Shown here one piece after another: positions 3,008 to 4,548 of a DNA stretch of 64,000 nt; within the stretch, counting starts at the first letter, position 1; every line of letters starts with the position of its first letter. Source of the DNA: Chloroflexota bacterium (lineage in GTDB: Bacteria; Chloroflexota; Anaerolineae; Anaerolineales; UBA11579); NCBI GenBank assembly GCA_018662365.1, contig JABJGH010000030.1, forward strand, positions 1 to 64,000, given 5' to 3'. A model generated the notes under the pieces. That model saw nothing but the letters and a program-made list of their open reading frames with translations. It was not told the DNA's origin and ran no database searches. A program made the position numbers and the translations under genes.

Positions 3008-3037
3008 GAAATAAGAATTATTTGTCTGTAATTTTAG

Positions 3038-3070
3038 TCCCCTGATGAATCATTATCGGGGGATTTTTTT
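3038..3070 (+). terminator. Rho-independent terminator after the AI-2E transporter
   Basis: TCCCCTGAT (3038-3046) pairs with ATCGGGGGA (3055-3063) over 9 bp with one G-T pair. The loop is 8 nt and seven T follow. It separates the transporter from the selenoprotein gene. Confidence 0.9.
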
Positions 3071-3146: not shown

Positions 3147-3635
3147 ATGTTCTATTTTATAAATCAAAACTCTTATATATTAATTGCTGCATTTCTTTGG
3201 GCGGGCGTATCAGCCATGGCTCTCAAAAAGATGCCATCCCCCGCAAATTATTTCCTTATTATTGGGCTGGCGATTCTTTTAATTATCTTATTCAATTTCG
3301 TGCGACCCAAGCAGGCAAATCTCTCTAACGAAATGCCAATTGAAAATCAGATCGGATTGGGTCAGGTAGTTTTACTCGAAATGCAATCCCCCTATTGACT
3401 TGGATGTATCGCAATAGAGCCTGTCGTGAACAGGTTAGAAACTGAACTAGGAAATGAGATGTTGATCTTACGGGTGGACATTCAAAGTGCCAATGGAAAA
3501 GAAATCTCCAAACTATATGCAAGCCGAATCACTCCTACTTTTATTTTGTTTGATCCCCAGGGAGAGGAAATTTGGCGAAGCATTGGCAACTTAGATCCCG
3601 AAAAGGTTCGGGACTCTCTGAAAGACTATAATTAA
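3147..3635 (+). CDS. Membrane-anchored thioredoxin-fold selenoprotein (UxxC), in-frame TGA at 3396-3398
   Basis: Read through the in-frame TGA, the gene gives one 162-residue protein. It has two N-terminal hydrophobic helices (about 9-27 and 34-52), a short linker and a thioredoxin domain (about 70-162). The active site reads SPY-U84-L-G-C87-I-A-I-E-P, exactly where thioredoxins have WCGPC followed by the helix-2 Pro. After it come the thioredoxin beta-strand (ILRVDI) and the cis-Pro loop (ITPTFILFD, P130). Both halves are in the same frame and neither is a complete thioredoxin alone. A SECIS-like hairpin starts 19 nt after the TGA. The role is inferred as thiol-disulfide or peroxide chemistry at the membrane. 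GDPD follows 19 bases later and may be cotranscribed. The start has no strong RBS; the ATG at 3216 is an alternative. The competing reading is a pseudogene with a nonsense codon, made unlikely by the codon's exact position and the hairpin. Confidence 0.85.
3396..3436 (+). promoter_or_regulatory. Sec UGA codon and bacterial SECIS-like hairpin
   Basis: The TGA at 3396-3398 is followed by a hairpin with arms AGCCTGT (3418-3424) and ACAGGTT (3430-3436): 7 bp, one G-T pair, 5-nt loop CGTGA. The second loop base is G. This fits the published description of bSECIS elements: small apical loop with a G in its first two positions, at least 4 bp of upper stem, and about 16-37 nt between UGA and loop (here 26 nt). 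SelB would bind here to place selenocysteine. Confidence 0.8.
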
Positions 3636-3654: not shown

Positions 3655-4548
3655 ATGAAAAAACAACTGAAGCAGATTTTCCTTTTTGTTTTTCTCCTGC
3701 TTGCTTTGATCATCACCATTTTAACAATCATCGCAAAACCAGCGGCGGATCATGTCTTCTTTTCCCAGTTTGACGATGATCAATATCCTTTGGTGATCGC
3801 ACATGCGGGCTCTAAACTATACCCAACAGATACGCTATATGCACTAGAACAATATGCAAATATGGGCGTGGATATTTTGGAAATGGACATTCATCTCACC
3901 AAAGATGAGCATATCATTTTGATCCATGATGATACTGTAGATCGTACGACAAATGGCGAAGGTGATGTTCGGGAGATGACCCTTGCTGAGGTAAAAGAAC
4001 TGGATGCTGGATATAAGTGGACAGATGATGAAGGGAGTACCTTTCCCTTCCGGGGTCAAGGGATCACGATACCCACATTAGAAGAGGTTTTCAACACTTT
4101 CCCGGGCTATCCAATGATTGTGGAGATCAAACAAGAAAGCCCCTCTATGGGAATTGTATTATGCGAGTTATTGCGCAAACATAATATGCAAGAAAAAGTG
4201 ATGGTACCTTCATTTAGCGATGTTGCCATGACGGAGTTTCGGGAAGCGTGCCCGGAAACGTCGACTGCCGCGAGCACAAATGAAGTAAAAGATTTTGTTT
4301 ATCGAAATTTTGCTTTTCTTGCAGGAACGATCAGTCCAAAATATCAGGCTTTACAGGTTCCCGAATCACGGGATGGCATCCCAATTGTTACAAAAATACT
4401 TTTATGGGCTGCCCGGTTACAAAATGTAGAAGTACATATTTGGACGATCAATGACCCCGAAGATATGCAAAGATTTATTGATATGGGCGTTGATGGAATA
4501 ATGACAGATAGGACTGACTTATTATTAGAAGTGCTGGGAAGAAACTAG
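3655..4548 (+). CDS. Glycerophosphodiester phosphodiesterase (GDPD) family protein
   Basis: The 297-residue protein has a hydrophobic N-terminal segment (about 8-27: signal anchor or signal peptide) and then a GDPD TIM barrel. Metal and catalytic landmarks are visible: HAGS near residue 50, EMDIHLTKD (metal ligands), LIHDDTVDRTTNG, and MIVEIK in the middle of the barrel. It ends with HIWTINDPEDMQRFIDMGVDGIMTD, split here as HIWTINDPED and GVDGIMTD, typical of UgpQ/GlpQ-type enzymes. The usual HRG and PENT motifs are altered to HAG and PTDT, so substrate preference may differ. It likely hydrolyses glycerophosphodiesters outside the cytoplasm to glycerol 3-phosphate and an alcohol. Confidence 0.85.
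   Translation: MKKQLKQIFLFVFLLLALIITILTIIAKPAADHVFFSQFDDDQYPLVIAHAGSKLYPTDTLYALEQYANMGVDILEMDIHLTKDEHIILIHDDTVDRTTNGEGDVREMTLAEVKELDAGYKWTDDEGSTFPFRGQGITIPTLEEVFNTFPGYPMIVEIKQESPSMGIVLCELLRKHNMQEKVMVPSFSDVAMTEFREACPETSTAASTNEVKDFVYRNFAFLAGTISPKYQALQVPESRDGIPIVTKILLWAARLQNVEVHIWTINDPEDMQRFIDMGVDGIMTDRTDLLLEVLGRN

Follow-up and report, generated by a model that had tools for sequence, protein, structure and literature searches.

Two open reading frames in the same frame (positions 3147–3398 and 3426–3635) are joined in this Chloroflexota DNA through a single TGA at 3396–3398 into a sequence of 162 residues, and the question raised by the locus is whether this TGA is a stop that breaks a thioredoxin gene or a codon for selenocysteine (Sec). 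We refer to the whole stretch of 64,000 nucleotides that was analysed as the window, and list the features discussed below in Table 1.

Table 1. Features of the putative selenothioredoxin locus and of the selD gene found elsewhere in the same genome.
Feature	Position	Strand	Basis or remark
Terminator-like hairpin with T run, between the AI-2E-type permease gene (upstream) and the gene	3036..3065	+	2 found vs 1.1 expected by chance; weak alone
Putative selenothioredoxin gene	3147..3635	+	162 aa with U84, one TGA read through, stop TAA 3633–3635
Two predicted TM helices, about aa 10–26 and 36–52, short KK loop between	3174..3302	+	Hydropathy
Thioredoxin domain, aa 73–158	3363..3620	+	Pfam PF00085, E 7.6e-7
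Active site U-L-G-C	3396..3407	+	Sec codon TGA 3396–3398; column has TGA in 75, Cys in 28
Putative bSECIS hairpin	3418..3436	+	7 bp, loop CGUGA (second loop base is G), within coding sequence
Glycerophosphodiester phosphodiesterase (GDPD) gene, downstream	3655..4548	+	PF03009; 19 nt past stop
selD, itself a selenoprotein gene	L050:1405-2481, G000:C52	-	CAGU motif, in-frame TGA

A split gene and its homologues

The frame which opens with the ATG at 3147 has no interruption other than the TGA before the TAA at 3633–3635, and this start is backed by an INQNS-like N-terminus that is kept in homologues. A preliminary description of this DNA had treated the two open reading frames as one gene, and this is confirmed by the frame and by a Pfam thioredoxin match. 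The window protein scores 29.5 bits against PF00085 (cut-off 23.5) and has both the [CU]xxC and cis-Pro motifs, which places it in that family; in the case of the thioredoxin equivalog TIGR01068, the score of 33.1 bits falls below the curated cut-off of 96.8, and an NCBIfam search with the window protein and the family found no equivalog above cut-off. A profile of the family matches PDB thioredoxins with E values down to 4.9e-18, and the active-site and cis-Pro columns align. This alignment and that of the homologues bear out the earlier placement of the TGA on the first active-site Cys (the context is LEMQSPY-U-L-G-C-IAIEPVV).

Homologues were collected from 100 relatives searched with the protein as query, from a phylum-wide search and from a search of named genomes (the broad alignment had no sufficiently conserved stretch for the named-genome scan and a narrower alignment was used instead), giving 103 distinct sequences that are full-length or nearly so. 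The best matches among the 100 relatives share 31–44% identity over the whole length including the TM helices, and nearly all have one TGA. It had been suggested that homologues be inspected for Cys or Sec at position 84, and these were the only residues found, with TGA in 75/103, Cys (TGC or TGT) in 28/103, and nothing else in this column. An in-frame UGA at a redox-active position where homologues have Cys is one criterion for a bacterial selenoprotein, and it describes this family. The cis-Pro motif is TPT in 89 of the 103 members and another xP[TS] in 11, and a third Cys is absent from 98.

The TGA might also be a real stop that breaks a Cys-type thioredoxin, either as a nonsense mutation in a pseudogene or as a sequencing error, and an ordinary gene caller does indeed report two open reading frames here. 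However, 75 diverged homologues, 25–43% identical to the window protein (alignment A1), share the TGA at this column, the frame after the TGA is intact and conserved, and the hairpin considered below is under selection. Since the TGA is found in tens of independently sequenced genomes, a sequencing error is excluded, and the conservation of TGA and hairpin in the 75 homologues agrees with the original opinion that a nonsense mutation was unlikely; we give this explanation next to no credence.

A hairpin kept with the TGA and the Sec machinery

The arms of the hairpin (3418–3424 and 3430–3436) form seven pairs including one G-U around the loop CGTGA, with 19 intervening nucleotides between the TGA and the hairpin and 26 between the TGA and the loop. 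The bSECIS rules given in the accessible text of PMC13188914 are a loop of 3–9 nt, an upper stem of 4–16 bp, a G as the first or second loop base and a spacing of 16–37 nt, and the window hairpin (7 bp, 5-nt loop, 26 nt) lies within them. The stem, loop, early G and distance of 19 nt past the TGA had all been reported correctly beforehand.

The hairpin offset is identical across all Sec forms, and at least four of the five inner pairs are present in 71/75 Sec forms compared to 3/28 Cys forms (Fisher p about 1e-16), while a loop starting with CGU is found in 74/75 and 5/28, respectively (Fisher p 4e-17); it should be noted that both p values are optimistic as the sequences are related. When the seven codons were swapped for random synonyms according to the usage of the same genes (n = 1000), four or more inner pairs were retained by a mean of 26.5 and a maximum of 38 of the 75 Sec forms, and the CGU loop by a mean of 31 and a maximum of 44, whereas the Cys forms have the pairing expected from recoding. 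The observed pairing is therefore far above that of synonymous recodings, which indicates selection on the hairpin in addition to that on the protein sequence, confined to the genes that have the TGA. A total of 11 sequences have both sides of a pair changed, and this affects three of the seven pairs, with C-G/U-A and G-C/A-U exchanged jointly at columns 27/37 and 28/36, and covariation across the hairpin (0.319 vs 0.166) was reached in 0/500 shuffles, with slid controls far lower. As the hairpin is kept with TGA and lost with Cys, the gene looks like a real selenoprotein gene with a bSECIS rather than the product of a nonsense mutation. A scan of the window's genome with the SECIS model found no second significant copy (the next best had E 0.095).

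The window's genome (2.79 Mb in 66 contigs, 94% complete) also contains a tRNA-Sec gene (selC) with the anticodon UCA, selB (361 bits, over cut-off), selA (537 bits) and selD (364 bits). All four of the genes proposed as a check are thus present, and together they make up a complete bacterial Sec system. The in-frame TGA of selD lies within SYAKCAGU-ASK, and we take this CAGU position to be the usual Sec site of SelD. These genes bear on a further possibility, that UGA is read as Cys or Trp through a code change or simple read-through and that no selenium is involved. Although the Cys found at this column in homologues would suit such a reading, 44 of the 75 TGA-form genes end in a TGA stop codon, the Sec machinery is complete with a UCA anticodon in its tRNA, and the hairpin is kept only in TGA forms, and we consider a reading as Cys or Trp extremely improbable. 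We are instead highly confident that the gene encodes a bacterial selenoprotein, a UxxC thioredoxin-fold oxidoreductase with a two-TM anchor in which UGA-84 would be decoded by SelB; the gene, the machinery, the conservation of TGA and hairpin, the thioredoxin domain and the TM helices on which this rests were all read from sequence.

Membrane anchor and proposed function

Hydropathy places two hydrophobic helices N-terminal of the thioredoxin domain in all 102 homologues examined. Lys and Arg together average 2.45 residues in the loop between the helices, against 1.8 in the flank that follows the second helix and 0.21 in the N-terminus, and as the loop is the most basic, the positive-inside rule favours, by a modest margin, an N-out/C-out topology with an extracytoplasmic UxxC domain. 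This charge pattern suggests that the thioredoxin domain is outside the cytoplasm. The same selenoprotein might alternatively hold its domain in the cytoplasm as a membrane-tethered thioredoxin fed by thioredoxin reductase; many members do have one or two basic residues after the second helix (RPK, RPR), and the loop is more basic than this flank in only 52/102 (with 30 ties), but on average the loop remains the most basic segment and the N-terminus is nearly without basic residues, and we regard the cytoplasmic arrangement as rather unlikely.

By the established chemistry of thioredoxins, the selenol would make the attack and the second Cys would act as the resolving residue. We propose that SelB and Sec-tRNA(UCA) would bind the in-frame hairpin downstream of UGA-84, which would then be decoded as selenocysteine, to give an oxidoreductase of the thioredoxin fold whose active site is UxxC and whose two N-terminal helices serve as a membrane tether. 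Disulfides or other oxidised substrates would be attacked by the selenol, and a thiol donor in the membrane or outside the cell would then return the UxxC selenenylsulfide to its reduced state. One DsbD_TM-type protein (DsbD/CcdA-type) and one VKOR are encoded in the window's genome, and these could be candidate suppliers or removers of electrons. Sec insertion, the extracytoplasmic site, the reductase direction and the partner are all put forward here on the basis of sequence. The preliminary suggestion of a thiol redox protein at the membrane stands as far as the two TM helices and the UxxC thioredoxin domain are concerned, and the redox role itself is one that we infer.

The gene neighbourhood was also considered. 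The GDPD gene is perhaps co-transcribed with the selenothioredoxin gene, and no match to the GDPD or permease context was found at the loci of relatives. In one related family represented by 50 loci, an EF-G-like GTPase gene is divergent upstream in 44, with a small methyltransferase gene downstream in 32 and a metalloenzyme-superfamily gene in 34. We note that in the flanks of L081–L141 this methyltransferase (32/50 loci) is SAM-dependent by type and weakly similar to TehB/TPMT, and a link to chalcogen methylation through this neighbour is speculation. A comparison of neighbourhoods across families found no conserved thiol-redox partner or functional neighbour.

Distribution, known relatives and Sec/Cys exchange

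Almost all of the named hosts are Chloroflexota, most of them Anaerolineales, and the family gene of one genome of the same order (L027) is identical to that of a named Anaerolineales MAG (L082), which would place the window in this order. The TGA form was verified in the genomes of 25 relatives; selA was over cut-off in 24 of these, and the remaining genome has a 42-residue selA piece at a contig edge. No selA match was found in three named TGA-form genomes, those of L087, L118 and L123, which may be incomplete MAGs. A search for the family in plasmids produced no matches. Tandem duplicate thioredoxin copies occur in some Chloroflexota (L164:6421-7654, L165:6224-7326 and L161:6053-7029), one Cys-form member (L142:6001-6228) is from a genome titled Verrucomicrobia in which no selA was found, which may reflect transfer or contamination, and a single weak match is titled Campylobacteraceae.

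The Cys thioredoxins HCF164/TxlA and DsbE/CcmG have an N-terminal anchor, usually of one TM helix, and an extracytoplasmic thioredoxin domain; the window protein shares the anchor and probably this placement of the domain but has Sec and two TM helices, and its match to DsbE is weak (E 0.079). The rhodanese/DsbD fusion-like selenoprotein TsoB (NF045694) weakly matches 2/29 members (5.4e-6), and the window family has neither a rhodanese nor a DsbD part. That thioredoxin-family selenoproteins exist, as had been stated at the outset, agrees with the accessible text of PMC13188914, where a Sec-containing thioredoxin (PF00085, UxxC) is listed in Table 1 of that paper as experimentally verified. It has in common with our family the thioredoxin fold, a Sec that replaces the first Cys of the active site and an in-frame UGA with a bSECIS, whereas the window family differs by its two TM helices at the N-terminus and by FQSxYUxxC instead of WCGPC. 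The thiol:disulfide interchange selenoprotein (PF13098) and the TlpA or thiol-disulfide-isomerase-like proteins in the same text share the UxxC redox site, but the window protein is below the PF13098 cut-off (20.4 vs 27 bits). The two-TM Chloroflexota subfamily is absent from the parts consulted of the PMC13188914 table and of PMC9312934, and a search of papers available without subscription found no description of it. We rate the subfamily as new within the already known Sec-thioredoxins, although it may already be annotated in RefSeq or described in another paper.

Substitution of Sec by Cys is rare in bacteria and mainly known from FdhA and SelD, according to the accessible text of a 2026 review (PMC13188914). 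When all 103 homologues are placed on an unrooted tree, the state switches between Sec and Cys at least 11 times (shuffled mean 24.8); few branches of this tree are strongly supported, and the starred ones by themselves require a single change. With long branches removed (89 rows), seven changes were found and a single clade holding all Cys forms was rejected, the very small p-AU value being read only as a clear rejection. Because the hairpin position and loop are common to all Sec forms, we infer one origin of Sec followed by repeated loss to Cys, and with it the polarity of these changes. The selA gene was found in the Cys-form genomes G095 and G069 and not in G032, G057 and G079, and was found in 21/23 further Cys-form genomes; as most of them keep selA, the replacement of Sec requires no loss of the Sec system. 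In one Cys form (L130:4357-4839) all seven hairpin pairs and the CGU loop are intact, which is apparently a fossil bSECIS, and the CGU loops kept by four others with little stem left (L070, L105, L114 and L122) look like relics.

We think it reasonably probable that these membrane-anchored selenothioredoxins face outward, extend across the phylum and go back to the ancestor of the Chloroflexota, and that Sec was exchanged for Cys many times among them with the machinery kept and the bSECIS decaying after each swap. The genes of this Sec-thioredoxin family are truncated or split by standard gene calling, and their recognition adds a well-supported selenoprotein subfamily in the poorly cultured Chloroflexota. 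Repeated Sec/Cys exchange within one small protein makes the retention or loss of Sec testable, and, if the wider reading is true, the series from Sec to Cys with its decaying bSECIS would serve as a natural experiment on the reasons for its retention or loss.
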